From IMG/VR virus record IMGVR_UViG_3300032240_000250, positions 1-27,927 of that record: 27,927 bases of DNA; one strand, written 5' to 3'. This document shows, in pieces, positions 1,543 through 16,847 of the stretch (position 1 is the stretch's first letter; each line of letters starts with the position of its first letter). The position numbers and the translations under genes are program-made. Origin of the DNA: a virus. The notes under the pieces are model-generated. The model was not told where the DNA came from and made no database searches. It worked only from the letters and a program-made list of their open reading frames with translations.

Positions 1543-1544
1543 AA

Positions 1545-1748: not shown

Positions 1749-2830
1749 CAGAGAGTTACAGTTTCAACAGTTTCAGTAGGAGCTTCAATCGAAGCATCAA
1801 TTTTAGTGTAGAGTTCCATGAAGGATTGTTTGGTCTCATCATCGAAACGAGCAATACAAACTTCGATTGCTTTCTTACGCTTACCGAAGATGCTGAAGGC
1901 ACGAATAACGTGAACCAGACGGCGAGTGGAAATGATTTCATCAACACCACCATCGTAGAAGGTCTTACGAATAATCTCTGCCCATGCAACCAGACGACTC
2001 ACAAACTCTTCATCGTAGCAGTTGAGTGCCTCAGCAGCTTTCTTAAGAATAGCAGTTTCAACTTTAGGAGTAGGATATGCCTGCTCAAAAGTTACAGGGA
2101 ATCGCTCAAGGAACGCTTCGTTGAGAACGTTGGTGCCGATGAAGCGCCCATCGTCAGAACCTTTGCCCTTAGTGTTAGCAGTAGCAACCACATTAAAACC
2201 AGCAGCAGGTTTGACATATTTACCAATCTTCTTAAGGAACACACCTTTACCTTCAAGCACAGATTGCAGGCAGAGGATTTTATTAGAGGCAAGGTCAATC
2301 TCATCCAGCAACAAAATAGCGCCACGGTTGAGTGCCTGCACCACAGGACCATCGTGCCACACGGTCTCACCGTTGACCAGACGGAAACCACCAATCAGGT
2401 CATCCTCATCAGTTTCAATGGTGATGTTGACACGAATCAGTTCACGTTTCAGTTGAGCACAAGCTTGCTCCACACTGAAAGTTTTACCATTACCAGAGAG
2501 ACCAGTGATGAAGATAGGATAATACTGACGAGAAGAAAGAATCTTCTTAATATCGATGAAATTACCAAAGCTGACAAAGGAAGCATCTTTAGCGGGAATA
2601 AAGTTTTCGGGGTTTTCTACCACAGATTCAACAGCAGGTTGACTATAAGTTTGTTCCAGTTGCTCAATGGCAGTCAGGTGCCACATACCACGATGCACCT
2701 TAAACTGATCCAGTTTTTTAGTGAGAGTTTGGTAGGACATACCAATCTCATCGGCATAGGTGCGAAGGTCGGCGGCAGTAACAACCGAACCAAATCGGTC
2801 AATCAGTGGGGCAACTTCAAAATTTTTCAT
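1748..2830 (-). CDS. cobS: CobS-like / MoxR-type AAA+ ATPase
   Basis: A 360-residue AAA+ ATPase of the MoxR/CobS group, the gene usually called cobS in cyanophages. An N-terminal HTH-like segment (about 10-55, TAADLRTYADEIGMSYQTLT) precedes the ATPase domain. Motifs are Walker A GLSGNGKT (110-117), Walker B LLLDE (173-177), sensor-1 asparagine in ATANT (219), arginine-finger region LERF (241-244) and sensor-2 STRRL (301-305). I start at ATG 2830, not at the in-frame ATG near 3016. The upstream start would read back through the promoter and into the CobT-like gene, and its extra residues have no MoxR character. The product probably remodels a partner through the CobT-like VWA protein encoded just upstream. 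In bacteria CobS works with CobT and CobN as a cobalt chelatase, but no CobN is visible here, so a chelatase role is only one option. Confidence 0.9.
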   Translation of the reverse strand: MKNFEVAPLIDRFGSVVTAADLRTYADEIGMSYQTLTKKLDQFKVHRGMWHLTAIEQLEQTYSQPAVESVVENPENFIPAKDASFVSFGNFIDIKKILSSRQYYPIFITGLSGNGKTFSVEQACAQLKRELIRVNITIETDEDDLIGGFRLVNGETVWHDGPVVQALNRGAILLLDEIDLASNKILCLQSVLEGKGVFLKKIGKYVKPAAGFNVVATANTKGKGSDDGRFIGTNVLNEAFLERFPVTFEQAYPTPKVETAILKKAAEALNCYDEEFVSRLVAWAEIIRKTFYDGGVDEIISTRRLVHVIRAFSIFGKRKKAIEVCIARFDDETKQSFMELYTKIDASIEAPTETVETVTL

Positions 2831-2855
2831 GGTGTGGGTCGTTTGGTATGTAGAT

Positions 2856-2884
2856 ATTATAGGGCAAAGGGGGTGGGGGCGCAA
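2856..2884 (-). promoter_or_regulatory. Sigma-70-type promoter of the CobS-like gene, -35 in a hairpin
   Basis: On the minus strand TTGCGC (2884-2879, 3 of 6 to TTGACA) is followed after exactly 17 bases by a perfect TATAAT (2861-2856). The start codon is at 2830, giving a leader of about 20 bases. The weak -35 hexamer lies in the loop and 3' arm of the hairpin at 2874-2891. The same arrangement occurs before the CobT-like gene. The -10 match and spacing are seen in the sequence; activity is inferred. Confidence 0.6.
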
Positions 2885-2891
2885 GCCCCCA
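2874..2891 (-). terminator. GC-rich hairpin between CobT-like and CobS-like genes
   Basis: A perfect 7-bp stem with a 4-base loop, TGGGGGC-TTGC-GCCCCCA on the minus strand, starting 9 bases after the CobT-like stop codon. The stem is strong enough for a terminator, but only CACCCCCTTTG follows, without a proper U tract. It may be a partial terminator, an mRNA 3' end stabiliser or an operator for the overlapping promoter. Confidence 0.5.
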
Positions 2892-2900
2892 TTGATCAGA

Positions 2901-5045
2901 TCAACTGATGAGTGTGGCGAAGGAGGTGAGCATCTTCTTATTGACGCCTTTTTTGGCGAGTGCTTTAGTGAATGCTTTACCGATTTCTTTCTCAGAAGCA
3001 TCCTCTTCCACATCAAATTCGCTATTCGCAGATAGCGAATCAGTGCCCATCAGATAGAGTGCTTGATAACCAAGATGCTCCATCAGTTCAGCGGACTTAG
3101 ATTTTTTCCACTGTTTCTGAACTTCACTCCAAGAGGTTTTACATTCATCAGCACTGTAAGTGTTATTCAGACCACGACCATTCACCAGACGAATACCAAT
3201 CAGGTTTACATCAGGGAAACGGTCACGAACATTTTGAAGAAACACTTTGGTGATTTTATCTGAGTTACCATAGTAACCACCATCATCAAAGCGAGGATAC
3301 ACACGACCAGTTTTACGATCACGCAGAACACAATCACTGGTTACATGATTCGTGCCCATACGGCTACCATACTTCTGGTCAGTGTAGTAGTTAATGCCCG
3401 CAGATTCACCATCAGTCAGAATAATAACATTAGTTTTTTGAACTTTGTTACGTTTCTGAAAGTCAGGGATAATAGCAGTCAGAGAGATTGCTGCCTCATG
3501 CAAAGGAGTGCCAGACAAACTATATCCAGCAGGAAGATGATAACCACAGTAACCACCGTTACCTACAACCAAACGCCAGAAGTTTTTAAGTTGTGCTTCA
3601 AGGTCTTTACCATTGCGACCGTTGCTGTTGACAAGATTTAGCATATTGAAGTGATCACACAGTTTGACTTGACCTTCTTTAGGAGTTTGAATGCGAGCAG
3701 ATTTGGTGCGAGTTTGAGTAGCATAATCATAGTTTCTCTGATACCAATAGTCATTGGTGAAAGCATAGATGTCAAAAGGAATCTGCACTTTCTTACAGAA
3801 CCATGCAAGGTTCAACAGTTGTTTAGCAGTATCCTGCAGAATGTTACCCATAGAACCAGACCAGTCAAGGATAAAAATTAGACCATGATTCTTACCGTCA
3901 GGCACAACATTGATTTTCTTAAACACATCTTCATTCCATTTGTAAGTGTGAAGAAGTGCGGTATCAAGGATGCCAGTTTTAGCAGTAGATGCACGAGCAT
4001 ACTGATCTGCCGACTTACGCATCTCAAACTCTTTCACAAGGTAGTTAACCTCACGTTGAGCTTCCGAACGGAAAGTCAGATACTGTTTGTCAACTTCTTT
4101 GAAGAGACATTGTGCCTGCTCATTGAAACAAGTTTTGCAATCTTCCTGCACTTGATTGTTAAAGACAACAATGTTATCTACTTTCAGTTCAGGCAGCTCA
4201 ATATAGTTCAGGTGATTAGAGCGAGGATGCTGACTAATCAGTTGTTTCTGATTCTCAGTAAATGCCTTATCGGTTTCAGATTCAAGCGTATTGTGTTGAT
4301 CACCACCATTAGTAGCACCTTCACCCTGATTCTCAGGTTGATCAGAATCAGCACCTTTGGTTTGGTTACCGTCACCAGAAGTTTGCTGAGGTTGATCACC
4401 TTCACCATCGGTAGGATCACCCCCACCTTGAGTGGAATCACCCCCACCTTGAGTAGATTGCTGGAGGTCTCCCTGTGCTTCTACAACTTGCTGTTTTTCT
4501 TGCTGCTCAGTATATGCAAGAATTTTGCGAGCAACATCTACAACTTGATCAAAAGTTTCAGCATCAGCAAGTTCATCTACAATAGCTTTCTCTTCAGTAT
4601 TCCAAGCGAACACTTCACCAGCATGAATACCAATCTTAAAGTAAAGATTTACACGGTCAATCAGAGCATAACTATTCAGTTCACGGTCGCCAATGCAGAA
4701 GAAATCATCATCCTGCAGTTCTTTGTAACCGCTGTAAAAGTTACGAGCGAGGCCAGGAAACTTACGCTTCATCAGTTTCTCAATACGAGCATCCTCACAT
4801 ACATTCAGGTAGGACTGAGGAATGCCATAGTCATCACCCCAACGGTCAGGGGTATAGATAGCATGACCGACTTCATGCCCCACCAACATATCGTAGACGT
4901 TGGCAGATGCCCGCTCCCACATAGGCAGCGTAAGGATACGGTCTTTCACGTTGAACATCGCCGTCTCTACAGGGCGGTGCTCTACAATAAGGTTCTCAGT
5001 AGCAAGGAGGCGAGCGAGGTTGCCCTTAACTTCGGCGTTGAACAT
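2901..5045 (-). CDS. CobT-like protein: HEXXH metallopeptidase-like domain plus VWA domain
   Basis: A 714-residue protein, commonly annotated as a peptidase or VWA protein in cyanophages. The N-terminal domain has HEVGH (57-61), a full HEXXH zinc motif, followed by NVCEDARIE (81-89) whose E84 could be the third ligand. A low-complexity Gln/Gly/Asp/Thr linker spans about 180-250. The C-terminal VWA domain has MIDAS residues DWSGS (394-398), T513 in SGTPL and D545 in ILTDGES. This is the CobT/VWA partner architecture of MoxR ATPases, and a CobS-like ATPase gene follows directly. I start at ATG 5045, with GAAAGAGA just upstream; a TTG at 5069 would extend it by 8 residues but overlaps the -10 box. 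Whether the peptidase is active, and on what substrate, is unknown. Confidence 0.88.
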   Translation of the reverse strand: MFNAEVKGNLARLLATENLIVEHRPVETAMFNVKDRILTLPMWERASANVYDMLVGHEVGHAIYTPDRWGDDYGIPQSYLNVCEDARIEKLMKRKFPGLARNFYSGYKELQDDDFFCIGDRELNSYALIDRVNLYFKIGIHAGEVFAWNTEEKAIVDELADAETFDQVVDVARKILAYTEQQEKQQVVEAQGDLQQSTQGGGDSTQGGGDPTDGEGDQPQQTSGDGNQTKGADSDQPENQGEGATNGGDQHNTLESETDKAFTENQKQLISQHPRSNHLNYIELPELKVDNIVVFNNQVQEDCKTCFNEQAQCLFKEVDKQYLTFRSEAQREVNYLVKEFEMRKSADQYARASTAKTGILDTALLHTYKWNEDVFKKINVVPDGKNHGLIFILDWSGSMGNILQDTAKQLLNLAWFCKKVQIPFDIYAFTNDYWYQRNYDYATQTRTKSARIQTPKEGQVKLCDHFNMLNLVNSNGRNGKDLEAQLKNFWRLVVGNGGYCGYHLPAGYSLSGTPLHEAAISLTAIIPDFQKRNKVQKTNVIILTDGESAGINYYTDQKYGSRMGTNHVTSDCVLRDRKTGRVYPRFDDGGYYGNSDKITKVFLQNVRDRFPDVNLIGIRLVNGRGLNNTYSADECKTSWSEVQKQWKKSKSAELMEHLGYQALYLMGTDSLSANSEFDVEEDASEKEIGKAFTKALAKKGVNKKMLTSFATLIS
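4416..4454 (-). repeat. 21-bp tandem repeat in the CobT-like linker
   Basis: The 18-base string ATCACCCCCACCTTGAGT (plus strand) occurs at 4416-4433 and again at 4437-4454, a 21-base period encoding STQGGGD twice. It lies in the disordered linker between the HEXXH and VWA domains. Repeat number is a likely point of length variation among relatives. Confidence 0.85.
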
Positions 5046-5068
5046 CGGTCTCTTTCGTTGATGAATCA

Positions 5069-5097
5069 ACTATACAGCAAACGGGGTGCCGTAGCAA
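5069..5097 (-). promoter_or_regulatory. Sigma-70-type promoter of the CobT-like gene, -35 in a hairpin
   Basis: On the minus strand TTGCTA (5097-5092) is followed after exactly 17 bases by TATAGT (5074-5069, 5 of 6 to TATAAT). The proposed start codon is at 5045, giving a leader of about 17 bases. The -35 sits in the bulge, stem and loop of the hairpin at 5080-5105. This is the same geometry as the promoter of the CobS-like gene. Confidence 0.5.
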
Positions 5098-5105
5098 CCC
5101 CCGTT
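5080..5105 (-). terminator. Hairpin between gp46 and the CobT-like gene
   Basis: AACGGGG (minus 5105-5099) pairs with CCCCGTT (5086-5080). A 2-base bulge separates this from an inner TGC/GCA 3-bp stem and a TACG loop. It starts 3 bases after the gp46 stop codon and is followed by TTTGCTG... only if the GTT of the stem is counted, so the U tract is too short for a strong intrinsic terminator. It may end or stabilise the gp46 mRNA and overlaps the next promoter. Confidence 0.5.
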
Positions 5106-5108
5106 AAC

Positions 5109-6833
5109 TTATTCTAATATTTCCTCTGTGACGTATGAGAAATTCTTATGCTTCTCAAATCGTAGGCAGCGGTCAAATTTATCTGCCATATTGTCTCGAT
5201 GAGAGATAACAAATACATTTGTTTTGTCATCAAACGTTTTTAGAATCCACCCCAAGTCACTGTTACCATTTTGGTCAAGTGACCCGTCAAAGATTTCATC
5301 AAGGATTAGAAGATTAGTATCCACGCTATTCTTAAGTTTAGCAATGCTACGCCAAGTAAGCAGCAAAGCAATATCGATTCTAGCTTTTTCACCTTCAGAA
5401 AAAGATTCATAACTAAACTCATCTCTGTAACGTGATTTGATTACTTCCTCAAAACTTTCATTTAACATAAACGATGCAGAAAACTCCATCTTTTCAAGGT
5501 AATCATTGATGAGTTTATTCATCGTCGGGAGGTATTTTTTGATGATCCTCGTTTTGATCCCCGAATCTTTGAGAAGTTGTGCTGCTGTGAGTAAGCAATC
5601 TTTTTCTTCTTTTGTTTCTGAAATCGTTTCTTGGATTCGCTTCCCGTCTTCGCTGAGGGATTTAAGAATTGAAAACTGCTCTCGTTGATTGACATCTGAA
5701 TCCCGCAGTTTTCTGATGTCGTCGTCCAGTTCTTCAATTCGTCTATGAAGTGACTTAATTTCATTATTGAGTTGTCGATTCCTTAGATTGAGTTCGTTTA
5801 TTTCATCAATCAAAAGAATAAAGGTATTCTCTTTACTTTGGAGATCGGAAAGTTGTTGTCCGAGATCAGACATAGCTTTCTCCACCTCAACAAGTTTATC
5901 CGAGAGAATCTGGATCTTCTCTTGTTTAAAATGCTCCTCAATGTTTTGTCCGCATGTCGGGCACGAATCATTCTGCTCAAAGAATACTTTTTCCTTGCGA
6001 TGTGCTTTTTGTTTGGATGATATTTTATTTCTGAGCGAATCAACCTTAGAGATCGTTGCTTTAACTTTCGACGTGTCTGAAACGGCAACGGTCTTAGTGT
6101 TGATTTCCTTGTCGTTATCGATGATTTGTGATTCATAATCTAGAGCTTCTTTTAATAGAGATTCTTTCTTATTCTCTTTTTCTTGAATGTCTTCTTTATT
6201 CTTCTTTTCAATGTCCAGCATAAACTGCTTCTGCATATCAATCTTCTCTTTGACAAGAGACAGTTTATATTCGTGGTCTTTTAGTTCGTCGTTAATAACT
6301 TTAATCTTTTCTTTCAAGTTGACATTCATTGTTGAGAAGATCTGAATGTCAAGGATGTCTTCGATGATTTCTCTACGAGCAGCCAAGGGAAGACGCATAA
6401 ATGGCACAAAGGTCGATGACCCTAGCACAACAATCTGAGTAAATGATTTATAGTTCATTTTCAAAATCGTTTGCTCAAAATGTTTCTGCTGATCTACAGC
6501 AGAAGAATCTTGGTTAAGTAGAGCACCATTCTGATAGATTTCAAACTTCGCTGGTTTAATACCACGAATCACTTTGTATTTATTATTACCAATATCAAAG
6601 CTAACTTCTACAACACAATCACCCTGATTGATAGAGTTGAGAAGTTGAGGTTTATTAATCTTTCTAAATGGTTTACCAAACAAAGAAAAAGTGAGAGCAT
6701 CTAAAATGGTGGATTTACCAGCACCATTTGCCCCCACAATCAAACTACTCTTTCTATCGGTCAGTGAAATATCAGTAAACTGATTACCAGTAGAAAGAAA
6801 GTTTTTCCATTTAATCGTTTTGAATGTGATCAT
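5109..6833 (-). CDS. 46: Recombination endonuclease subunit gp46 (Rad50-like)
   Basis: SMC/Rad50-type ATPase that, with gp47, processes DNA ends for T4-style recombination-dependent replication. The product is 574 residues, near T4 gp46 (560). Motifs are Walker A GANGAGKS (34-41), a long coiled coil (about 175-430) interrupted by the zinc-hook CPTC (291-294), ABC signature FSEGEKARID (478-487) and Walker B LLILDEIFD (508-516), with the H-loop in VISHRD (543-547). I use ATG 6833, where MITFKTIKWKNFLSTGN matches the family start; the longer frame would add 12 unrelated residues. The start lies 23 bases inside the upstream DUF3110-like gene. Confidence 0.96.
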   Translation of the reverse strand: MITFKTIKWKNFLSTGNQFTDISLTDRKSSLIVGANGAGKSTILDALTFSLFGKPFRKINKPQLLNSINQGDCVVEVSFDIGNNKYKVIRGIKPAKFEIYQNGALLNQDSSAVDQQKHFEQTILKMNYKSFTQIVVLGSSTFVPFMRLPLAARREIIEDILDIQIFSTMNVNLKEKIKVINDELKDHEYKLSLVKEKIDMQKQFMLDIEKKNKEDIQEKENKKESLLKEALDYESQIIDNDKEINTKTVAVSDTSKVKATISKVDSLRNKISSKQKAHRKEKVFFEQNDSCPTCGQNIEEHFKQEKIQILSDKLVEVEKAMSDLGQQLSDLQSKENTFILLIDEINELNLRNRQLNNEIKSLHRRIEELDDDIRKLRDSDVNQREQFSILKSLSEDGKRIQETISETKEEKDCLLTAAQLLKDSGIKTRIIKKYLPTMNKLINDYLEKMEFSASFMLNESFEEVIKSRYRDEFSYESFSEGEKARIDIALLLTWRSIAKLKNSVDTNLLILDEIFDGSLDQNGNSDLGWILKTFDDKTNVFVISHRDNMADKFDRCLRFEKHKNFSYVTEEILE

Positions 6834-7098
6834 AATCTCTAGGAGGCACAATAATATCGTCAGGTTCAACGATAACGTATTTCATTCCTCTCATCTCACA
6901 CATACCGATTCCTGCTTTTGCATCAATCTCGTATGTAGTTAATGGAGGTAGCGAATCATCAGAATCATTTGCTTCTAACAATCCAAGATACCTTTCGGCA
7001 TCGTCTTCTTCTTCAAAGAAGTATACCACATGATCACCCTCTTCGTCAACAACAGAATAAACTCCATCACTGTGTTCGGCAAGAGTGATAAGAAACAT
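6811..7098 (-). CDS. DUF3110-like small acidic protein
   Basis: A 95-residue acidic protein between gp47 and gp46. MFLITLAEHSDGVYSVVDEEGDHVVYFFEEEDDAERYLGLLE has the DUF3110 pattern (a FVLxxNxxxxxxGIYxL strand, then VxxFExEDDAxRYxxLLE), a family I know from cyanobacteria, plants and cyanophages. The C-terminal part, MCEMRGMKYVIVEPDDIIVPP, continues the ferredoxin-like alternation. It overlaps gp47 by 1 base (TAATG) and gp46 by 23 bases, so it is strictly co-translated with the two nuclease subunits. A role tied to the gp46/47 complex is possible from position only. The biochemical function of DUF3110 is unknown to me. Confidence 0.82.
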   Translation of the reverse strand: MFLITLAEHSDGVYSVVDEEGDHVVYFFEEEDDAERYLGLLEANDSDDSLPPLTTYEIDAKAGIGMCEMRGMKYVIVEPDDIIVPPRDYDHIQND

Positions 7099-8147
7099 TA
7101 CACCACCTCACAACTCTCAATATATAGCGTTTTCATTATACTCTTTAACTTTGCTTTGTCTACGGCAATCTCTACTTCATCAATGTATTCATTCAGAAGT
7201 GTGAGAGTGTCTTTGATTTCTACATTGTCATTGTCTTCAACAAACGCATCGTTAACTAGTGTTTCAATAATCTTAACATCATGTGGTTGAGTAGCAAACA
7301 CAGAATCAACAAACTTCTCAAACTCTGTGTAATCTTTCTTATCTTCTACGATAATCTTGACAAAAGAACTTGCACACTGAGAGGTATCGAAGCTGAGATG
7401 AGAACCAGTAGAATCATTATAATATATTTTTTGGAAAATCTCATAAGGGTTCTTGACCCGTTTGAGTTTATTTGTTGTTGGTTCATAGAGATGAAATCCT
7501 CGCTCGTCTTTGTAATCATTCCAATACATCTGATAAGGATTACCAAGGTAGGTGATGTTGCCTCTGGTAGATTTATGATGATAGTGTCCTGAGAATACTT
7601 GTTTAAACTTTTTAAAGATGGAAGGATCCATACCATGTTCTTGTTTGTTGCCAGGTGTCACTTCAAAACCAGATAGTTCAAGGTGACCCATAGCAATCTC
7701 AGCATTAGTATCATTGATCCAACGCATTGTTTCTTCATAGTTAGAAGAATTAATCCAAGGCATCATCAGAATTTTAGCGCCATCAATGATTACTGTTTCT
7801 GGGTGAGCGTAAATTTCAATATTACTAAAGTCCTTGAGCAGAAGTTCAGGTGAGTTAATCTCGTTCGTATTCTTGTAATAAGTGCAGTGATTGCCAAGAA
7901 TCATGTGAACGAAGATACCCATATCCTCAAGGCGTTCAAAATAATAACTACGCACACGGTTCCAAACGTTAAAGTCAATGCCCTTACGATTATCAAATGT
8001 ATCACCAAGGTCAATAACAGTTTTGATTCCGTGTCTTTCCAGTGTTGGGAAGAAGATGTCGTCGTAAAATTTTTTAAAATATTCCCAAAAAGCGACACTA
8101 CCTTTCCTCCCATCTAAATGTTGGTCTGTAATAAGTGCTATTGTCAT
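7098..8147 (-). CDS. 47: Recombination endonuclease subunit gp47 (Mre11-like)
   Basis: Calcineurin-like metallophosphoesterase that forms the nuclease complex with gp46. The product is 349 residues, close to T4 gp47 (339). The five phosphoesterase motifs are visible: DQH (8-10), GDTFDNR (48-54), GNHC (85-88), MGHLE (153-157) and SGHYHH (186-191), supplying the two-metal ligands. The C-terminal part (after about 250) is the variable capping and gp46-binding region. It overlaps gp55 by 4 bases upstream (ATGA) and the DUF3110-like gene by 1 base downstream. Confidence 0.96.
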   Translation of the reverse strand: MTIALITDQHLDGRKGSVAFWEYFKKFYDDIFFPTLERHGIKTVIDLGDTFDNRKGIDFNVWNRVRSYYFERLEDMGIFVHMILGNHCTYYKNTNEINSPELLLKDFSNIEIYAHPETVIIDGAKILMMPWINSSNYEETMRWINDTNAEIAMGHLELSGFEVTPGNKQEHGMDPSIFKKFKQVFSGHYHHKSTRGNITYLGNPYQMYWNDYKDERGFHLYEPTTNKLKRVKNPYEIFQKIYYNDSTGSHLSFDTSQCASSFVKIIVEDKKDYTEFEKFVDSVFATQPHDVKIIETLVNDAFVEDNDNVEIKDTLTLLNEYIDEVEIAVDKAKLKSIMKTLYIESCEVV

Positions 8148-8659
8148 CGTTTAGATCGCATCTCAAGGTTTTCTTTAATGCTGTTCATGTCAGCACTACT
8201 GCTACTATAACCATACATATCACCGCTGTGACTGTCCATATGCAAAACTTCATCATATCCTGACCTTTCAAGGATCTTGGATTTAATTTCTAATTGTTTT
8301 TTCTCTCTTTGAATACGACGCAGAAAAGCGTAGTAGATAATTTGAGTAAAATAAGCAAATGGATTAGTAGATTTTTCTGGATTAAAATTATCAATATACT
8401 GAAGGCAGTTTTCAATGCCATCACAAATCATATCTTCCCTAAACATGTAGTTGACAAAGTTTGGTTTGTATGATAGATGAGTAGCAATTTTTAAAAAACA
8501 CTCTCCAACATAGTTGGGAACTTTTGGTTTGGGAGAACCTGTCTCTTTTGCCGCAGCAACCTTTTGTCGATACACCATCAAGGCATCGAGAAACTCACGG
8601 TTGTTGACGTAATTTTCTTTTGTGGTTCTTTTACCCATCGGTTTTTCGACAGTTAACAT
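8144..8659 (-). CDS. 55: Late-transcription sigma factor gp55
   Basis: Phage sigma-70-family subunit that directs host RNA polymerase to ATAAATA-type late promoters. The product is 171 residues (T4 gp55 is 185). The conserved sigma region-2-like core is seen in NFVNYMFREDMICDGIENCLQYIDNFNPEKSTNPFAYFTQIIYYAFLRRIQREKKQLE (about 73-130), containing the ENC...Y..F.P...NPFAYFTQI signature. The C-terminus ends SIKENLEMRSKR without an obvious hydrophobic or aromatic tail. The start at ATG 8659 follows a strong host-type promoter by about 20 bases; ATG 8638 is an alternative. As first gene of the gp55-47-DUF3110-46 cluster it can be made before late genes. Confidence 0.95.
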   Translation of the reverse strand: MLTVEKPMGKRTTKENYVNNREFLDALMVYRQKVAAAKETGSPKPKVPNYVGECFLKIATHLSYKPNFVNYMFREDMICDGIENCLQYIDNFNPEKSTNPFAYFTQIIYYAFLRRIQREKKQLEIKSKILERSGYDEVLHMDSHSGDMYGYSSSSADMNSIKENLEMRSKR

Positions 8660-8682
8660 GGTTTATAATCATCAGTGTGTAT

Positions 8683-8711
8683 ATTGTAACACACCCAACT
8701 GATTTTGTAAA
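8683..8711 (-). promoter_or_regulatory. Strong sigma-70-type promoter of gp55
   Basis: On the minus strand TTTACA (8711-8706, 5 of 6 to TTGACA) is followed after exactly 17 bases by TACAAT (8688-8683, 5 of 6 to TATAAT). Transcription would start near 8676, about 17 bases before ATG 8659. This is an early or middle type promoter for the late sigma factor and the recombination cluster. It lies back to back with the plus-strand promoter at 8717-8745. Confidence 0.75.
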
Positions 8712-8716
8712 GGGGC

Positions 8717-8745
8717 TTGACACAAGCTCTAAATCCGTATATAAT
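8717..8745 (+). promoter_or_regulatory. Perfect consensus sigma-70 promoter on the plus strand (antisense)
   Basis: TTGACA (8717-8722), a 17-base spacer, then TATAAT (8740-8745), all as in the consensus. It is the best promoter match seen in the window and points the opposite way to every gene. Transcripts would begin near 8752 and run antisense into the 138-residue gene and UvsW. No plus-strand coding gene follows. The -35 lies in a small inverted repeat, GCTTG-ACA-CAAGC (8715-8727). Confidence 0.65.
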
Positions 8746-8760
8746 AGCAATGTTGCGCTT

Positions 8761-9177
8761 TCAAGATTTATTATATATCTCTTCTAATAACTTCTTAGAT
8801 TCTTTAATAGATCCTAAGTACCCTTCGTGGTCTTTTGTTTTTTGTCTTTTAGAATTTAATTTTTCTTTTATATTATTTTTTTTATAAAGAGATTTATTTT
8901 CTAAATGATCTTCATAAAAACCTGCAATACGTTTATCAAGTTCAATCATTGTAATAATTTGAGAACGAGGAATAATAAACATATTTTCTAAAGTAGCATT
9001 TATCCAATCATCAAAGACAATACCTTCAATGATTTGATTACCTTTTCTTTGTTGTACTTTTTCAACTAAACGAGGTTCTAATAAAATAATTACATCATCT
9101 TCTGAATCGTAACTAACTTTAGCTACGATTTCTTCACCAGAAGTTAATTTAATAGCAGCATAAAATTCTTCTTCCAT
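8761..9177 (-). CDS. Conserved hypothetical protein, possibly Sm-like
   Basis: A 138-residue protein between UvsW and gp55 that I do not recognise by name. The N-terminal 80 residues look like a small beta barrel: YAAIKLTSGEEIVAKV, DDVIILLEPRLVEKV, then NMFIIPRSQIITMIEL. This pattern (conserved G-E-x-[IV]-x-A, later P-x-x-x-I-x-x-[IM]) is reminiscent of Sm-like folds. That is inference from strand pattern, not a family match. The C-terminal 50 residues are Lys/Asn/Glu-rich, helical and encoded by A/T-rich codons. It starts 1 base after the UvsW stop, so it ends the gp3-like/uvsY/uvsW transcript. Its 3' end faces the plus-strand promoter at 8717-8745. Confidence 0.8.
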   Translation of the reverse strand: MEEEFYAAIKLTSGEEIVAKVSYDSEDDVIILLEPRLVEKVQQRKGNQIIEGIVFDDWINATLENMFIIPRSQIITMIELDKRIAGFYEDHLENKSLYKKNNIKEKLNSKRQKTKDHEGYLGSIKESKKLLEEIYNKS

Positions 9178-9178
9178 A

Positions 9179-10657
9179 TTACCTTAAATCTAGTTTGATG
9201 ATTTCTACATTAAAGTTTTCTTCTTCATAGATTTTCAAACGCTCATCCAAATGTTTAAGCGTGTAGTTTTTTTGTGGTGTTCGACAATACTCATCAGCAA
9301 TATCATAAAGAGTAGCAAAGGTTTTATTATTTCCTTTGCGTAATACTCTACCGATGGATTGTAAATTTCTTACCCTTGATTTAGATGGAGAGGCAAATAC
9401 AACATTATGAAGATTACGAATGTTGATACCTGTACTAAATGTTCCGTATGAAGCTACGATCACTGCGTCATTTTCTGTTTCAGTGATTCTTCTAATCTCT
9501 TCTCGTTCTTCTGTATCTACACCACCATAGACCAGAAAAACTTTACGACCATCTTTAACAACACTATTTATGCTTTCATATAAAGGCATTCCGTGACGTT
9601 CAACATAGTTGAACAACACAAGAGTGTTTCCTTCTAAGTCACGCACAAGATTTTTAATTAATCTATTGCGTTTTGGATTATCAACAATTTCATCAATTTC
9701 TTTTTGATAATCAAAAAACTCCATCTTCTCGTGCTTGAGCAAAAGAACTTTGATTCTAAAATCAGATAGGTGACCATCCTTGATAAGCTTATCTGTTTTG
9801 ATAACATGCTTACATTCACCAAACAATCCTTCCAACACCCATTTATGTGTAGCAGAACCATCCAGTGTTCCAGTGAAACCAAAGCGATACTTAGCTTCAT
9901 GGAGTTTTGTCATAATACCCGTCAAAGATTTTGACTTGAACAAATGTGCTTCGTCGCCAATCACACATGAGAAATCATCAAACCAACGTTTGGGGAACTT
10001 GTAAATGGATTGCCAAGTAGAAATGATAACTGCTTTTTCTACGTTTTTATCTTTACCACCGTAGATCTTGTGGCAGTGCTCTTCTATATCCCAACCATAA
10101 TCTTCGAAATCTTTATACATCTGTTCTACAAGAGAAGTAGTGGGAACAATGATAAGAGTTTTCTTTCCAGTTTTTTTATACTCTGACGCATAGTAATAAC
10201 GCACCAAAGAATAAATCATTAACGATTTACCTGATGCAGTTGGTGAAAGTAAAAGCCTACGATTGTGTAGCAGTGCTTCGTATACCGCTTGAACTTGGTA
10301 GTCACGTGGGGTGTGGTTAGGGCACACAACTCCCATGAATCCTTTTACACCTTCTAGTGTAATATGGTCATTGTGTTCTTCAACATCTCCGTAGAATTTG
10401 TTTGGTTTGAAGTCAATTGAATAGTTTTTGATTCCACACCATTCTTTGAGGTGGCTGATGAGACCACAGTATAACTCACCTGTTCCTGGCGAGTATAAGC
10501 GGATTTTGCCGTCCCATACTCCACTTCTATACTGGGGCATGAATTTAGCGTTAGGGATGTCGAATGTGAAATAATCAGAGAGTTCATAGTGGACGTGTGG
10601 TTCTGCGTTGATTGTTAAGAAGATATTATTCTTCTTTGCGACTACCAGATTTGACAT
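9179..10657 (-). CDS. uvsW: UvsW-type recombination helicase
   Basis: Superfamily 2 helicase that, in T4, branch-migrates recombination intermediates and unwinds R-loops so that origin-dependent replication gives way to recombination-dependent replication. The product is 492 residues (T4 UvsW about 500). The N-terminal DNA-binding domain (1-110) includes FMPQYRSGVWDGKIRLY. Motifs are Q-like PRDYQ (117-121), I SPTASGKS (138-145), II DEAH (235-238), III FTGTLDG (261-267) and VI QSIGRVLR (433-440). The ATG overlaps the UvsY stop by one base. Confidence 0.96.
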   Translation of the reverse strand: MSNLVVAKKNNIFLTINAEPHVHYELSDYFTFDIPNAKFMPQYRSGVWDGKIRLYSPGTGELYCGLISHLKEWCGIKNYSIDFKPNKFYGDVEEHNDHITLEGVKGFMGVVCPNHTPRDYQVQAVYEALLHNRRLLLSPTASGKSLMIYSLVRYYYASEYKKTGKKTLIIVPTTSLVEQMYKDFEDYGWDIEEHCHKIYGGKDKNVEKAVIISTWQSIYKFPKRWFDDFSCVIGDEAHLFKSKSLTGIMTKLHEAKYRFGFTGTLDGSATHKWVLEGLFGECKHVIKTDKLIKDGHLSDFRIKVLLLKHEKMEFFDYQKEIDEIVDNPKRNRLIKNLVRDLEGNTLVLFNYVERHGMPLYESINSVVKDGRKVFLVYGGVDTEEREEIRRITETENDAVIVASYGTFSTGINIRNLHNVVFASPSKSRVRNLQSIGRVLRKGNNKTFATLYDIADEYCRTPQKNYTLKHLDERLKIYEEENFNVEIIKLDLR

Positions 10658-11133
10658 TAGGTATTTCCGTTAATAAATTTCTCCCACTCGATAGCGTTTT
10701 TAATTTGGAAACTTCTGTTGGAAATCATCTTAAGAATATTATCCAAAAAGAAAAGTGCCTTATTAATAAACTCTATTTTCATTTCAATGTTAATTAAATC
10801 CTCATCCGCTTCTAAATATACTTTCATTTTCTCGGATGTTTTTATGGATTGTCCAAAAGGTTTTTCTTTGTAAACTTCGGGGTCCGCTTCTCCTTGGTAG
10901 TATTCTCTTTTTTCTTTTAACTTCATACGATACTGGAATTCCAGTGCTGTTTTCTCTGTAGAAAAATCGTTGTAAAAGTTTAAATATTTATTATGTTGAT
11001 AAGGAATGTCTAGCGAAATTTGTGCTAGGTCTGCTGAGTATTGTTTGTTTTTAAATTGAAAGTCAATATGTGAATCTTCTTGCCATTCTGATTTAACATG
11101 ATCAAATAGGGTTTTCAAATCATCAAATTTCAT
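10657..11133 (-). CDS. uvsY: UvsY recombination mediator
   Basis: Mediator that helps UvsX recombinase replace single-strand binding protein on DNA. The product is 158 residues (T4 UvsY is 137). It has the family features: an N-terminal segment KFDDLKTLFDHVKSEWQEDS, the YNDFSTEKTALEFQYRMKLKEKREYYQG helix, and a C-terminal helix with SNRSFQIKNAIEWEKFING. It is mostly helical, acidic/basic mixed, with no signal or membrane segment. It sits 3 bases after the gp3-like gene and overlaps uvsW by one base, so these recombination genes appear to be read from the late promoter at 11673-11679. A TATTTAT at 10985-10991 lies inside the gene. Confidence 0.92.
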   Translation of the reverse strand: MKFDDLKTLFDHVKSEWQEDSHIDFQFKNKQYSADLAQISLDIPYQHNKYLNFYNDFSTEKTALEFQYRMKLKEKREYYQGEADPEVYKEKPFGQSIKTSEKMKVYLEADEDLINIEMKIEFINKALFFLDNILKMISNRSFQIKNAIEWEKFINGNT

Positions 11134-11136
11134 AAA

Positions 11137-11652
11137 TTAAATCCTTTGATTATTTTTATTATTAAAAGTATAACGTGTAAATTTAAAAGTTACTGCAGCG
11201 GTAAAAAATTCCATTTCTCTATCTTCAACATCAAAACTTAATTCAGATAAATCAACTGGAAATAAATTATCAAAATTTATAATAATATTTGTTTGAAAAT
11301 TACTGTTTAAAATTTCTAACTGTCCGTCGGAATATTGAGGATCTTTTTCTGTATCGTATCCTTCTGCTAAATTATTTTTAATAATCCAATCATGGATTGT
11401 CAAATAATTTTTCATATCTTCGTCAATCAAAAATTTAAGACGAACATCCCCATAAGATAATCCACCAGAAGATGTGATTGCTATTCTTCTAAATGGAGTT
11501 TGAATCTCAGCATTTGGAACGCTGATATCTGGCAAATTTACAGATTGACAAAAGAAATCAACTCCAGCAAAAATATCTAAATTCATTCTAAAACCAACTG
11601 GAGCTAGAAAATTTCTATTTGTTGGTTGTTCTGTGTACCACTTTGAAGGCAT
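11137..11652 (-). CDS. Tail-tube-fold protein, probably tail completion protein gp3
   Basis: A 171-residue virion protein. It resembles the gp19 tail tube encoded at 16884-17501: C-[KQ]-S-x-x-L-P, then E-x-x-x-P-F-R, then a strand ending F-[IL]-x-[DN]-[ED], then W-[IM]. Both therefore probably share the tube fold. In the cyanophage gene order I recall, the gene between gp23 and uvsY is gp3, which caps the tube and stabilises the sheath. Phage tube-terminator proteins also adopt this fold. A second tube protein is the alternative. It is preceded by a late promoter (11673-11679) and follows the gp23 terminator, so it starts a new late unit that continues into uvsY and uvsW. Confidence 0.72.
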   Translation of the reverse strand: MPSKWYTEQPTNRNFLAPVGFRMNLDIFAGVDFFCQSVNLPDISVPNAEIQTPFRRIAITSSGGLSYGDVRLKFLIDEDMKNYLTIHDWIIKNNLAEGYDTEKDPQYSDGQLEILNSNFQTNIIINFDNLFPVDLSELSFDVEDREMEFFTAAVTFKFTRYTFNNKNNQRI

Positions 11653-11672
11653 GACTTTATCCTTTTTTCACT

Positions 11673-11679
11673 ATTTATT
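11673..11679 (-). promoter_or_regulatory. Late promoter element (ATAAATA) before the gp3-like gene
   Basis: AATAAATAG on the minus strand, 20 bases before the start codon at 11652 and just downstream of the gp23 terminator. It matches the T4/cyanophage late -10 element (TATAAATA / NATAAATA). Confidence 0.7.
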
Positions 11680-11684
11680 TGCAT

Positions 11685-11709
11685 AAAAAAAGACCCCCTT
11701 TCGGGGGTC
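11685..11709 (-). terminator. Intrinsic terminator after gp23
   Basis: On the minus strand a perfect 7-bp stem with a GNRA-type loop, GACCCCC-GAAA-GGGGGTC, is followed directly by seven Ts. It starts 18 bases after the gp23 stop codon. It is the only full intrinsic terminator seen in the window and separates the highly expressed capsid gene from the gp3-like/uvsY/uvsW unit. Confidence 0.93.
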
Positions 11710-11727
11710 GAAAGATTTACCTGAGGA

Positions 11728-13149
11728 TCAGGTGAGGTTGACAACCTTAACTCTTCTGTAATACTGGTTGGTATTAGCAGTGAGGGTTTGACCGTCTGGA
11801 GTTGCACCAGCAATACCACCCGACTGAGTGGTTGAAACGAATGGGTTGCTGACCATGCCGTAACGTGTCTTGAAGCCAATCTTAGGCTGGAAGGTGTCTG
11901 GGTTGATCGAACGAACCATTTGGAGAGGAACGTATGGGCAATAGAAGAGACCAGCATCATAAGGTGATGTGCCCTTATAACCCATGACGTAGTAGTGCTT
12001 AGCATTAGCGCCTTGGCTATAGATAGGAGCACCGAATGGATCGATATAAACACGAATACCACCTTGAAGAACACCAGCAAATACGTTACCAGTGTCATCA
12101 ACGTTGAGTGAAGTGTTGAGAGCAGGAGCGTAATCAAGCATACCAGCCATTGACATGGCGGAAGCAACGTCTGCAGAGCAGATCATGAAGTTGCCCTTAC
12201 CTCTACGTGTTAACTGACCGATAGCATTTGCGTCACGGTTGATTTGGAAAAGTAGACCTTTGAACTTCTCTGCCATCCAACGACCGTTTGAATCAACGTC
12301 AAGGTCAAAAGTGCCTTGAGTAGCAACGTCGGTTTGAGCACCAGCTTGAGCGACGGTGTATACAGTACGGATGATTTCACGGTTGATCTCAGCGAGAATC
12401 TCGCTTGAGAGGATGTTAGCAAGTTCTTGCTCAGCATCAAGACCATGGATAGCCTTGAGGTCTTGTGCGAGTTCTAGAGTGTATTCTGCTTTGAGAGCAC
12501 GTGTCTTAGCAGTCACCGAGGTTTTCTCGATGCTGAAGCTCATCTCACGGAAGAGAGTTCCTGCTTCGCCAAGAACTTCAGAAGCTTCACGGGTCATGCC
12601 ATGCTTAACTTCGTAAGTTCCAGGTGAACCATCGTTAAGAACAGCAGGGTTGTTACCTTCTGCATCGCCACCAGCACCGAAAGCATCACGAACAGTGTAA
12701 GCGCCTTTGGTAGCATCAGAAGCAGCAGAGAATCCCGAATCTGGTTCGTAGTAGAGAGCTTCCTTACCAACTTGATCTTGATAACGTGCTCTCATTGCGA
12801 AGATAAGTCCAGTAGGACCGCTCATTGGTTGAACGCCTGCAATATCATAAGCGATAAGGTTAGGCATTGAACGGCGGATTAGGCTGATTAGGATAGGATC
12901 GAAACCAGCGAGACCAGCAGTGTTGGTCGATGATAGAGCTGAACCTGAAGGTGAAATAGCAGAAGCACCTAATGCGTTGACTGGTGTTTCTGTAAGCATT
13001 GCGTACTCTTCACGCATTGCTCTTTCTTGATTTTCTAGCAGGGAAGCAGTAACTGATCTACGGTATCCGTCTTTGATCTCGTTGAGACCAGCGCCAGAAG
13101 CATTAAGAACAGGTGCCCACTTTTCCTGCAATTGTCTTGTTTCGGACAT
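11728..13149 (-). CDS. 23: Major capsid protein gp23
   Basis: HK97-fold major head subunit, cut by the gp21 protease during maturation in T4. The product is 473 residues (T4 gp23 is 521). Recognisable pieces are the N-terminal SETRQLQEKWAPVLN scaffold-binding segment, SLIRRSMPNLIAYDIAGVQPMSGPTGLIFAMRARY, ALKAEYTLELAQDLKAIHGLDAEQELANILSSEI and the C-terminal SINPDTFQPKIGFKTRYGMVSNPF. The start has a strong AAGGAG 9 bases upstream and a late promoter at 13190-13196. A perfect terminator follows. No separate gp24 vertex gene is seen beside it. Confidence 0.97.
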   Translation of the reverse strand: MSETRQLQEKWAPVLNASGAGLNEIKDGYRRSVTASLLENQERAMREEYAMLTETPVNALGASAISPSGSALSSTNTAGLAGFDPILISLIRRSMPNLIAYDIAGVQPMSGPTGLIFAMRARYQDQVGKEALYYEPDSGFSAASDATKGAYTVRDAFGAGGDAEGNNPAVLNDGSPGTYEVKHGMTREASEVLGEAGTLFREMSFSIEKTSVTAKTRALKAEYTLELAQDLKAIHGLDAEQELANILSSEILAEINREIIRTVYTVAQAGAQTDVATQGTFDLDVDSNGRWMAEKFKGLLFQINRDANAIGQLTRRGKGNFMICSADVASAMSMAGMLDYAPALNTSLNVDDTGNVFAGVLQGGIRVYIDPFGAPIYSQGANAKHYYVMGYKGTSPYDAGLFYCPYVPLQMVRSINPDTFQPKIGFKTRYGMVSNPFVSTTQSGGIAGATPDGQTLTANTNQYYRRVKVVNLT

Positions 13150-13189
13150 TTGCTTTAACTCCTTTGAGTGTTTGGGGTGTTATGTTAAT

Positions 13190-13196
13190 TATTTAT
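13190..13196 (-). promoter_or_regulatory. Late promoter element (ATAAATA) before gp23
   Basis: GATAAATAATT on the minus strand in the 53-base gap between gp22 and gp23, 40 bases before the gp23 start. It matches the late consensus and gives gp23 its own late promoter. Confidence 0.72.
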
Positions 13197-13202
13197 CAAA
13201 AA

Positions 13203-14324
13203 TCATTGCCAACGTGATAGCGCCTGTAGATAAGCAGACATTGCTGGTGAATGCTCATCAGTTACACCTTCAACTGTTGACTCTACTTGTTCAGTTACTA
13301 CATGCTTAGGGAAGTAGCTGCTAATGAGTGTGGAAACTTTGTTTTTGAAATCTTCTTCCGAAACAAAATCTACGCTCTCAGCAAGAGAAGCAAGTTTTTC
13401 TCTTTGGGTATCAACAAGACCTTCGCTCATGCGAGCAAGGATTGCTTGCTTCTGATAACCAGCGAGTTTATTATTAAGTTCAATATTACGCTCAAGTTGT
13501 TCGTTGAGGCGACCTTCCATTTCACAAAGCTCTTCTGTCATTGATTCTACTGCATCGATTTTCTCTGCAGGTAGATCAATGTAGTTTTCTTCAAAAACTT
13601 TTTTGAGGCTGCCCATGAATTCTTCTGCGATCTCTAAGCGGAGACCTGCATCAAGGGCAATCTGATTTTCCTCTACCCATGACATGATGGCATAGGTAAG
13701 AGTTTCATCGATTTTCTCAGAGAGAGTATCGATTTCACTTTGAAGCTTTTCGCTAAACTTCTCTTCTAAAGTAGAAGCAATCTTAACGACTTGCTCTTCG
13801 ATACGTGCTTTAACAGCAGCTTCGAAGATTGTTGTTGCTTTTGATTTGAACTCTTCGGAGAAATCTCCACCTTCCGTAAGAGCAGCAACATCTTCTGCGG
13901 CAGAGTAATCAATCGCTTCCATACCAAATACTTTGGTATTGTTGGGACCGCTCTCTAGACCGTAACCAGATGACTTAACCGATGGCATTGGATCTTGGTG
14001 CTTACCACGAGTTTGCTGATCGCTAACTCTCTTATTGTGGTTAGATGACTTAGCACCAGGATTGCTTTCGCCTTGTGGTTTTTCTAATGAAGAACCACCA
14101 TCATCTTCTTCTGATTGACCAGGAGCAACAGAAGTAGGAACTTTAAAACCAGGATCTTGCTTACCTGATTTTGAGTTAACTGCTGTTACACTTTGTCCAG
14201 TAATGGGTTGCATATACTGACTACCAGAAGCTTGACTTGGAACAATGGCAGGAGATAGTGCATTGATACCTACTTCTGCTTCAGTTACAAGCTCCTCAAA
14301 TTTTTCGTTTAAGTTATCTGACAT
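13203..14324 (-). CDS. 22: Prohead core scaffold protein gp22
   Basis: Main scaffolding protein that shapes the prohead and is degraded by gp21. The product is 373 residues, longer than T4 gp22 (269). The first 150 residues are a low-complexity Ser/Gly/Pro/Gln region. A long acidic coiled-coil region follows (about 155-345): FEAAVKARIEEQVVKIASTLEEKFSEKLQSEIDTLSEKIDETLTYAIMSWVEENQIALD is the typical gp22 segment. The C-terminus ends HSPAMSAYLQALSRW, the conserved tail. I start at ATG 14324 (MSDNLNEKF), which has GAGGG upstream; the longer frame to 14405 adds 27 residues that run through the late promoter. Confidence 0.9.
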   Translation of the reverse strand: MSDNLNEKFEELVTEAEVGINALSPAIVPSQASGSQYMQPITGQSVTAVNSKSGKQDPGFKVPTSVAPGQSEEDDGGSSLEKPQGESNPGAKSSNHNKRVSDQQTRGKHQDPMPSVKSSGYGLESGPNNTKVFGMEAIDYSAAEDVAALTEGGDFSEEFKSKATTIFEAAVKARIEEQVVKIASTLEEKFSEKLQSEIDTLSEKIDETLTYAIMSWVEENQIALDAGLRLEIAEEFMGSLKKVFEENYIDLPAEKIDAVESMTEELCEMEGRLNEQLERNIELNNKLAGYQKQAILARMSEGLVDTQREKLASLAESVDFVSEEDFKNKVSTLISSYFPKHVVTEQVESTVEGVTDEHSPAMSAYLQALSRWQ

Positions 14325-14368
14325 TTGAGATTCCCTCGTAATTCTACAATATTTGTTTATTCTATGAT

Positions 14369-14375
14369 TATTTAT
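14369..14375 (-). promoter_or_regulatory. Late promoter element (ATAAATA) before gp22
   Basis: AATAAATAATC on the minus strand in the 55-base gap between gp21 and gp22, 44 bases before the chosen gp22 start at 14324. Its position supports that shorter start. Confidence 0.7.
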
Positions 14376-14379
14376 TAAA

Positions 14380-15024
14380 TTAAAGATTTTGTAGGAAGTT
14401 TTCAAAAACCTCTAACGATCTTTGTTCAATATTCTTTCTGGTAGATTCAGAAATATATCTTTTGTATTTAGCAATATTAACTTCCTTAATAATGCCATTT
14501 TCCCAAACCCACTCTTTTCCTTCCATGATTCCATTGACAAATGCATCTGGTGCGGAAGGATCTGCTACAATGTCAGCAGCAGTAGCGAGCATGAAATCAT
14601 CTCTCACATAGTTTGCACCATTCTTTTCCTCGATCGAACCCATACCACGAGAAGAAACGCCGAGCTTAACGCCTGACTCTAAAAGTGATTTGGCGATGTT
14701 CCCCATTGGTGTGTTTAAAATCTGTGCTTTACCAATGAAGTTTGTTCCTTCTGCTCTAAGTGATGTGATTTTGTGAGATACACGATCTAGGTTTACAGTA
14801 GGACCATCTGGATGACCTAACTCACCTAAAGCACGACCAACGGAAACATATTGTTCGGTGTAGCGATTAACTTCTCTTTCTAATACAGAAAAAGGATAAA
14901 CACGACCATTGCGGTTCTTAAGATCTGCTTGAAGGAACACTCCTTCAATATACAGATTTTTTGTGCCATTCTTTTCTTCTACAAGAACTTGAATGTCTTC
15001 GATGCTTTCTGTGATAAGTTTCAT
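14380..15024 (-). CDS. 21: Prohead core protease gp21
   Basis: Serine protease that cleaves scaffold and capsid proteins at L/I-x-E sites during head maturation. The product is 214 residues (T4 gp21 is 212). Seen are the N-terminal YIEGVFLQADLKNRNGRVYP segment, the likely catalytic histidine in LGELGHPDG (H71), the nucleophile region LGVSSRGMGS (S124/S125), and DIVADPSAPDAFVNGIMEG. The family is the herpesvirus-type prohead protease fold. Its start overlaps the gp67-like gene by 4 bases (ATGA), so the two are translationally coupled and read from the late promoter at 15225-15231. Confidence 0.95.
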   Translation of the reverse strand: MKLITESIEDIQVLVEEKNGTKNLYIEGVFLQADLKNRNGRVYPFSVLEREVNRYTEQYVSVGRALGELGHPDGPTVNLDRVSHKITSLRAEGTNFIGKAQILNTPMGNIAKSLLESGVKLGVSSRGMGSIEEKNGANYVRDDFMLATAADIVADPSAPDAFVNGIMEGKEWVWENGIIKEVNIAKYKRYISESTRKNIEQRSLEVFENFLQNL

Positions 15025-15203
15025 TGTTCTGTTTCCTCTTCTTCGGTTTCTTCGTTTTCATAACCAAAGAATGATTGTGCTACAATTTCTTTATAAGAAC
15101 TCATAGCTTCTGATGCTCTATTGTATAACATATCGTTAATTTTTTCAATAGCAGCTGCACGATCTTGATTGCGAATGCTTGTAATAATATCAATAGTGTC
15201 CAT
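15021..15203 (-). CDS. Small prohead core protein, gp67-like
   Basis: A 60-residue protein between portal gp20 and protease gp21. The N-terminal part forms helices (DTIDIITSIRNQDRAAAIEKINDMLYNRASEAMSSYKE) and the last 12 residues are almost all Glu/Thr (NEETEEEETEQ). T4 gp67 occupies the same place in the head cluster and is also a short helical protein with an acidic tail. The assignment rests on position and composition more than sequence identity; gp68 or an unrelated core peptide is possible. It has its own late promoter at 15225-15231 and overlaps gp21 by 4 bases. Confidence 0.7.
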   Translation of the reverse strand: MDTIDIITSIRNQDRAAAIEKINDMLYNRASEAMSSYKEIVAQSFFGYENEETEEEETEQ

Positions 15204-15224
15204 TTGATTTAACCTATAATAAAT

Positions 15225-15231
15225 TATTTAT
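15225..15231 (-). promoter_or_regulatory. Late promoter element (ATAAATA) before the gp67-like gene
   Basis: AAATAAATAATTT on the minus strand, 22 bases before the start at 15203. It overlaps the gp20 stop codon (15228-15230). Confidence 0.7.
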
Positions 15232-16847
15232 TTTTCTGATGTTTTTGGTTTAGGTGGAGCTGCTGGAGCAGGTGGTGGCGGTGGTGCCGCCCCCATCTCT
15301 AATGTTGCAGCATTCATTAAATTGGTGTGGATAGGATCTGGGATCTTACCTTCCGCAATCTCGGCATCCATCTGTTTAGTGATTTCTTCATACTCAGTAT
15401 CAGTTTGCATTAGAACTTGCTTTCTGACATATTCAATAGAATAATATTTGCCTAAGAACGGATCTAGTTGAGTAGCAACTTGAAGGCGATTGCCCATAAG
15501 TTCTGCTTGTTTGAGTTCTTCAAAATGATTATCAAATTGAAAATCATATTGAATATGCTCTTGCATTTCTTCCCAATCTTCGGGTGCAATAACACCTTTT
15601 AAAATGAGTTGAGTTTTAAGAATGTCGTGAAATAATGCACTAAACTTTTTGCGAAGACGAGCAATAAACTTAGCAAACTTAAGTTCATCACGTAAAATTT
15701 CAGATGAACGACCAAGTGAGAATCCTTGATTTGCATCATCTAAACGTGATGGTGGGAGGTTAAGTGAGTTGTATAGTTTCTTTTTGAAGTATTCAACGTC
15801 TTTTAACTCACCAAGATTTTGACCACCAGGAAGAGTCGTAATTTCTGTTCCTCTACCACCTTCTCTACGTGGAAGCCAAAAGTCCTCCAACATAGACATA
15901 TGTTTTTTATCATCACGGATTTCTCCAGTTTGTGCGTCATAAACAAGCTTGTTACGATAACGAGCCATTGTTTCTCTGAGATATTGTTCCGCTTTTACCT
16001 TGGGAAGATTACCTACATCAATGTAAAAAATACGACGTTCTGGTGCTCGTGACAAACGATAGATAACCAGAGCATCTTCAATCATGCGAAGCTGGTTAAG
16101 TGATTTAATTGCTTTGTGGAGAAAACTCAAGACCATTTTTTTGTTGAGGTCTTGTAAACTTGATGTTATGTAAGTGATAGAATCGTTCGCAATTTTGACG
16201 CCACTTGTAGCGTTGTTAACGTCAAAAGTTGAACTGATGAATCCTTTTGGATTATACATGTAGTATTCTACATATTCACCAAAATCATATTGATATGCTG
16301 AACCTTGAACTCCTCTCAAAGCATCTGCCATTTTAGGGTCTTTAGTTTGAACCCTAACTTTTTTAATTTTTAATGGATCGATGTACCTGAGTTCTAAGAT
16401 ACCTGCTTTTGGATTCGCAAGATCTACAACTTTGTGGTAAAATAATCTACCGTCAATATACCATGTTCTAAACATTTCATGCGCTCTTGTATCAAAATGC
16501 AAGAGGCGAAGAATATATGCAAATTCTTCTCTAATTTTATTTTTAATTGATTCGCTTACTTTTAAATTAGATAGTTCAACAGATACTGGAGTATCATCTA
16601 AACTTGAGTTAATTGCTTCGTTAACAATTTCATCAATAGCAGAATCAACTTCTGGGTGCATAGACATATCACGGTAGCGTTTAATGAGATCAAACTCATT
16701 TCTTGCTACCCCGTCAATATCTACATATGAACCAAAATAACCACCTGCTACAGTGGTTACTGAATCGTCAGCAGCAGGAGGAACTGGGGATTGACCCCTA
16801 GGTTCCTCCACTTTGCTTTTGATTGAAAATCCAAATAGTTGACTCAT
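15228..16847 (-). CDS. 20: Portal vertex protein gp20
   Basis: Dodecameric portal through which DNA enters and leaves the head, and the initiator of prohead assembly. The product is 539 residues (T4 gp20 is 524). Family signatures include NEFDLIKRYRDMSMHPEVDSAIDEIVNEAI, RLFYHKVVDL, ELRYIDPLKIKKVR, LNQLRMIEDALVIYRLSRAPERRIFYIDVGNLPK, MARYRNKLVYDA, FWLPRREGGRGTEITTLPGGQNLGE and NSLNLPPSRL. The last 30 residues are Pro/Ala-rich (PPPPPAPAAPPKP), a flexible tail. It starts 36 bases after gp19, with a variant late element CTAAATA at 16875-16881. Confidence 0.97.
   Translation of the reverse strand: MSQLFGFSIKSKVEEPRGQSPVPPAADDSVTTVAGGYFGSYVDIDGVARNEFDLIKRYRDMSMHPEVDSAIDEIVNEAINSSLDDTPVSVELSNLKVSESIKNKIREEFAYILRLLHFDTRAHEMFRTWYIDGRLFYHKVVDLANPKAGILELRYIDPLKIKKVRVQTKDPKMADALRGVQGSAYQYDFGEYVEYYMYNPKGFISSTFDVNNATSGVKIANDSITYITSSLQDLNKKMVLSFLHKAIKSLNQLRMIEDALVIYRLSRAPERRIFYIDVGNLPKVKAEQYLRETMARYRNKLVYDAQTGEIRDDKKHMSMLEDFWLPRREGGRGTEITTLPGGQNLGELKDVEYFKKKLYNSLNLPPSRLDDANQGFSLGRSSEILRDELKFAKFIARLRKKFSALFHDILKTQLILKGVIAPEDWEEMQEHIQYDFQFDNHFEELKQAELMGNRLQVATQLDPFLGKYYSIEYVRKQVLMQTDTEYEEITKQMDAEIAEGKIPDPIHTNLMNAATLEMGAAPPPPPAPAAPPKPKTSEK

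Follow-up and report, generated by a model that had tools for sequence, protein, structure and literature searches.

The stretch of DNA analysed here, referred to as the window, is a 27,927-base fragment (positions 1-27,927) of virus record IMGVR_UViG_3300032240_000250, and protein matches assign its genes to T4-like cyanophages. All convincing genes lie on the minus strand. Between the stop of a gene for a 138-residue protein (8761) and the start of the gene for the late sigma factor gp55 (8659) lies a gap of 101 bases, the plus strand of which carries a -35 hexamer TTGACA (8717-8722), a 17-nt spacer (8723-8739) and a -10 hexamer TATAAT (8740-8745). As an earlier note on this DNA had observed, these boxes match the sigma-70-type consensus perfectly, at 12 of 12 positions; its further observations that no plus-strand gene follows and that a transcript would start near 8752 agree with the gene layout and with the +1 at G8752 that we infer from the -10 spacing. 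We refer to this antisense promoter as P_as. The features of the locus are as follows.

8144-8659, minus strand: gene for gp55, the late sigma factor (protein matches in annotated relatives, alignment, weak match to sigma-70 region 2).
8683-8711, minus strand: divergent gp55 promoter, with TTTACA (8711-8706), 17 nt and TACAAT (8688-8683); conserved in relatives.
8717-8745, plus strand: antisense promoter P_as; two hexamers, conserved in 74 of 74 loci selected by gp55.
8746-8767, plus strand: conserved element around +1, AGCAATGTTGCGCTTTCAAGAT, with the predicted +1 at G8752 (alignment of 117 sites, weight matrix).
8752-8850, plus strand: predicted short antisense RNA of about 95 nt against the 3' end of the Sm-like gene (promoter, and terminator position in close relatives).
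8816-8850, plus strand: candidate terminator, a weak hairpin (8816-8834) and a U-tract (8833-8850); a far stronger hairpin occupies the same place in close relatives.
8761-9177, minus strand: gene for the 138-residue Sm-like protein, its 3' end overlapping the predicted RNA (PF16243, PDB 3by7).
9179-10657, minus strand: gene for the UvsW helicase, upstream of the Sm-like gene (PF21241 UvsW_N and helicase domains).

Elsewhere in the window, a second perfect TTGACA/TATAAT pair, with a 16-nt spacer, lies on the coding strand at 21675-21648 (minus), about 250 nt upstream of a 554-residue gene (19731-21395), and sequence much like it is found in genome G002 at 147,563 (plus). A strong canonical terminator, GACCCCCGAAAGGGGGTC followed by seven T residues, is located at 11692-11709 (minus), just after a 473-residue gene (11728-13149) that by gene order probably encodes the major head protein.

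P_as is the sole 12/12 match with 16-18 nt spacing in window positions 1-20000, and shuffling gives an expectation of 0.11 TTGACA/TATAAT patterns with 15-19 nt spacers per window, which as evidence against chance is suggestive only. A DNA search with positions 8640-8800 returned chance matches only, and the exact 34-mer of the promoter is absent from viral_contigs; direct DNA searches being uninformative, conservation had to be found via the flanking proteins. Among 74 distinct loci gathered by gp55 protein similarity alone, all 74 carry an antisense TTGACA-17-TAnnnT upstream of gp55 in the same place and orientation, against 0.14 expected from dinucleotide shuffles, these counts, like all others given here, being inflated by kinship as they come from related sequences and not from independent events. 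The earlier view that P_as is unlikely to have arisen by chance is thus borne out, and the loss of a hexamer in relatives keeping the flanking genes, which that view had raised as a counterindication, was seen at none of these loci. The -35 box and the spacing are nearly invariant among the relatives; the -10 box often varies (TATAAT, TACAAT, TAGAAT, TACACT, TAGACT). P_as is present in ten named phages whose hosts are Synechococcus, Prochlorococcus or Pelagibacter, i.e. S-PM2, Syn9, S-RSM4, S-SM2 (with a 16-nt spacer), S-SRM01, P-HM2, P-SSM2, P-SSM4, P-SSM7 and Pelagibacter phage HTVC008M, and no such element was found upstream of gene 55 in T4. At the level of sequence, strong conservation of P_as is confirmed in the T4-like cyanophage relatives checked.

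The conservation extends beyond the -10 box to approximately +16 in the alignment of 117 sites, giving an element that spans -35 to about +16 and reads, past the -10 box, AACTCTGTCAGGGTTCAAGA in most lineages and AGCAATGTTGCGCTTTCAAGA in the group of the window. When four large genomes were scanned with a weight matrix of this element, no more than two to three sites per genome scored high, well separated from all lower ones, and the gp55 gap is one of these sites. We rejected a genome-wide early-promoter motif as the identity of the element because the matrix gives so few high matches per genome. An imperfect inverted repeat, e.g. AACTCT-GTC-AGGGTT, straddles the predicted +1 in 8746-8767 and its homologues; its arms carry matching changes in several lineages and are broken in others (ACGAGTGTGCGAG), and the sites of one genome share it without differences. 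As the predicted +1 falls inside the repeat, it is unlikely to form an RNA stem, and with the repeat broken in some lineages a 5' RNA hairpin was discarded as a candidate.

With a threshold of -9 kcal/mol or better and synonymous-codon shuffling of the overlapping gene as the null, 25 of 117 loci have antisense-strand terminator-like hairpins with T-rich tracts within 250 nt of +1, against 3.9 expected, and such hairpins are about eight-fold denser there than further along the antisense strand. The synonymous-codon null was used because covariation inside the terminator hairpin, assessed by column shuffling, is modest to weak. The hairpin lies at about +90 in close relatives of the window (-16 kcal/mol in locus L004, for example) and at about +105 to +230 in other lineages; the remaining 92 of 117 loci have no strong terminator at this threshold and could therefore give rise to a longer RNA. 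The window retains a weak hairpin, decayed to -4.6 kcal/mol, with a long U-tract behind it. Of the end previously placed in U-rich sequence at about 8836-8885 without a clear terminator hairpin, the U-rich part stands near 8836-8850, and the lack of a clear hairpin holds for the window but not for relatives, which have a candidate, the closest about 90 nt after +1.

The enrichment of terminators implies that the RNA should be about 90-230 nt long in many lineages, and a short antisense RNA of this size at the 3' end of the Sm-like gene is the most likely product as judged from sequence. P_as is oriented opposite to the gene for the 138-residue protein and the predicted RNA covers the 3' end of that gene, as had been proposed; the suggested reach into uvsW is not supported, since a terminator, in the lineages that have one, should stop the RNA within the Sm-like gene. 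ORFs starting in the first 250 nt of the predicted RNA are short and unconserved, and a plus-strand small ORF after P_as was rejected on these grounds. Likewise, Rfam covariance models gave no match in the window, and a known RNA family was dropped as the identity of the predicted RNA.

The gene opposite the predicted RNA is labelled "methylamine utilization" in PHROGs and in many phage records. The protein is Sm-like, matching PF16243 (E 6.8e-10) and, with a family profile, PDB 3by7 (E 3.8e-8), and from its sequence the label for the gene at 8761-9177 (minus) looks wrong. In pairs of 65-85% protein identity, synonymous identity in the last ten codons of the gene is 0.88 against 0.50 expected, the highest excess in the gene; this excess is found in close relatives and is small in more distant lineages.

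Combining these data, we suggest, with about even confidence, that the uvsW-Sm/gp55 junction harbours a cis-antisense RNA resembling lambda OOP together with a divergent promoter. In this model, P_as would be a genuine strong sigma-70-type promoter, used by host RNA polymerase to start at about 8752 and read into the 3' end of the Sm-like gene; in the lineage of the window and several others, an intrinsic terminator within that gene would end the transcript after roughly 90-230 nt. The resulting RNA, short and non-coding, would be complementary over its whole length to the 3' end of the uvsW-Sm message as well as to transcripts that read through into gp55. By analogy to lambda OOP, a duplex formed at the Sm/gp55 junction would cause the read-through message to be cleaved or lost, the action of RNase III being taken over from lambda. 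As a consequence, gp55-47-46 would be expressed from their own promoter and the output of the Sm-like gene would be tuned. The conservation, the rare element past +1, the enriched terminators, the synonymous excess, the lack of a conserved ORF and the layout shared with lambda OOP argue for this model; it is weakened by the 92 of 117 loci without a strong terminator, the weak hairpin of the window, the modest covariation and the small synonymous excess outside the close group.

The second promoter in the gap opens a different possibility. The promoter of gp55 itself is conserved, matching at 10 or more of the 12 positions in 86 of 117 relatives against approximately 2.4 in shuffles, and its -35 box lies back to back with that of P_as, 5 bp apart in the window and 2-8 bp apart in most relatives. 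On this sequence evidence, P_as most likely forms, with the gp55 promoter, a conserved divergent pair located between the uvsY-uvsW-Sm and gp55-47-46 units. Two polymerases probably cannot occupy such closely spaced -35 boxes simultaneously, so that initiation at one promoter should lower initiation at the other. Alternatively to an antisense RNA, it could therefore be the act of transcription that matters, with P_as competing with the gp55 promoter or blocking uvsW-Sm read-through by collision and in that way setting the timing of the late sigma factor. The short distance between the -35 boxes, an RNA that has neither a conserved ORF nor a strongly conserved structure, and terminators that are absent or weak in most loci are in line with this possibility; we nevertheless consider it rather unlikely as the whole explanation, given that pure competition requires neither conserved sequence past +1 nor the selected terminators of several lineages. 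Promoter interference should be regarded as a rival to the antisense RNA or as a second layer beside it, and the block of read-through, also proposed in the earlier note, similarly remains a rival to, or a component of, the OOP-like explanation.

The element also has copies elsewhere in these genomes. In five of the genomes examined, a second copy follows closely on a baseplate-hub-like gene and points, in the sense direction, at a small ORF: in S-PM2 it is found at 162,737 (plus) before S-PM2p214 (phrog_507, of unknown function; the stretch 162,737-163,169 corresponds to L264:7738-8170), and the small ORF at this place differs in other genomes. In genome G004 the copy at 90,608 (plus; L266:4609-4645) is antisense, in the gap between the 3' end of a 242-residue gene and the start of a 714-residue gene, and it faces a TTGACA-17-TATTAT, repeating the divergent arrangement seen at gp55; S-SRM01 likewise has its second copy in a gap and antisense to its neighbours. 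The first eight bases after the -10 box are identical between the sites of one genome in 7/7 genomes and differ between lineages, a pattern that would fit a trans-acting factor or concerted evolution. It is conceivable, although on balance doubtful, that such sites constitute a family-wide regulatory pair, in which an antisense RNA and/or a divergent promoter switch acts on the late sigma factor and is controlled, jointly with a second promoter, by a phage factor reading the +1 element, and the RNA is perhaps tied to the Sm-like protein as a phage-encoded RNA-chaperone/small-RNA module.

P_as might instead give rise to a long antisense RNA that extends across uvsW, uvsY and late genes and protects or masks their messages, a role suggested in other cyanophages for antisense transcription and RNase E. 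Antisense transcription has been reported for Kyanoviridae according to PMC10976474, which cites Stazic et al. 2016, and most loci have no strong terminator; we consider such a transcript improbable in view of the terminators near +1, which are enriched above the synonymous null in many lineages. A function as a transcription-primed replication origin is very improbable. The ori(uvsY) of T4 consists of a promoter, an R-loop and an AT-rich unwinding stretch, and P_as resembles it as a strong promoter without a gene of its own, close to uvsY-uvsW, followed by AT-rich sequence and present in few copies per genome; however, cumulative GC skew, which mostly follows gene direction in these genomes, does not turn at the sites, and the second copy in S-PM2 directly precedes a gene. 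Finally, even in an AT-rich genome in which about 55 weaker promoter-like sites are expected by chance in 20 kb, a chance match in the gap is excluded, to near certainty, by the comparison across relatives, with P_as kept and its -35 box and spacing fixed in 74/74 loci and the extended element far above background in each genome.

Returning to the OOP-like antisense RNA, in lambda the expression of OOP and its dependence on RNase III are proven (PMC5869508 and references therein). In both loci, a promoter sits between two genes that run in one direction (pO-oop-to lies between cII and O), and the downstream gene has a key role, O in lambda and gp55 here; the RNA predicted here would, like OOP, be short and antisense, run over the 3' end of the upstream gene and stop at an intrinsic terminator, for which 25 of 117 loci have a strong candidate and the window a weak one. 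The loci differ in their genes and in phage type, and the RNA described here is a prediction from sequence; moreover, P_as lies directly beside a divergent promoter, and its extended element recurs at a second site. Within T4-like cyanophages, CfrI of S-PM2 is an antisense RNA at a gene 3' end in a gap (PMC2984593, PMC12197685); it is about 225 nt long, was detected experimentally and belongs to the locus of psbA and a homing endonuclease gene. The earlier appeal to CfrI as a precedent for the class holds (PMC2984593), the likeness being one of class and layout, and P_as differs in lying at the junction of the Sm-like gene and gp55. Host-like TTGACA/TATAAT boxes have been described upstream of early-gene homologues in S-PM2 and Syn9 (PMC2984593). 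P_as has the same host-type boxes as these ordinary early promoters, which do not have the +1 element and drive sense genes, whereas the class of P_as has two to three members per genome and its gp55 member is antisense. The GenBank records of S-PM2, Syn9 and S-RSM4 have nothing annotated at the P_as site, and the locus is unmentioned in the cyanophage literature compared, with Doron et al. 2016 (Syn9 transcriptome) and Stazic et al. 2016 outside this comparison; novelty is accordingly provisional, and the RNA may have been detected earlier.

T4-like cyanophages rank with the most abundant viruses of the sea, and their control of early and middle transcription in the absence of the MotA/AsiA system of T4 is unsettled (PMC2984593). 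The exact starts predicted in cultured phages, with antisense 5' ends at approximately 123,698 (minus) in Syn9 (NC_008296), 120,709 (minus) in P-HM2 (NC_015284) and 84,439 (minus) in S-PM2 (NC_006820), make P_as directly checkable in RNA-seq data from infections. In all relatives tested, P_as provides a concrete, unannotated candidate control element, antisense and beside the gene for the late sigma factor.
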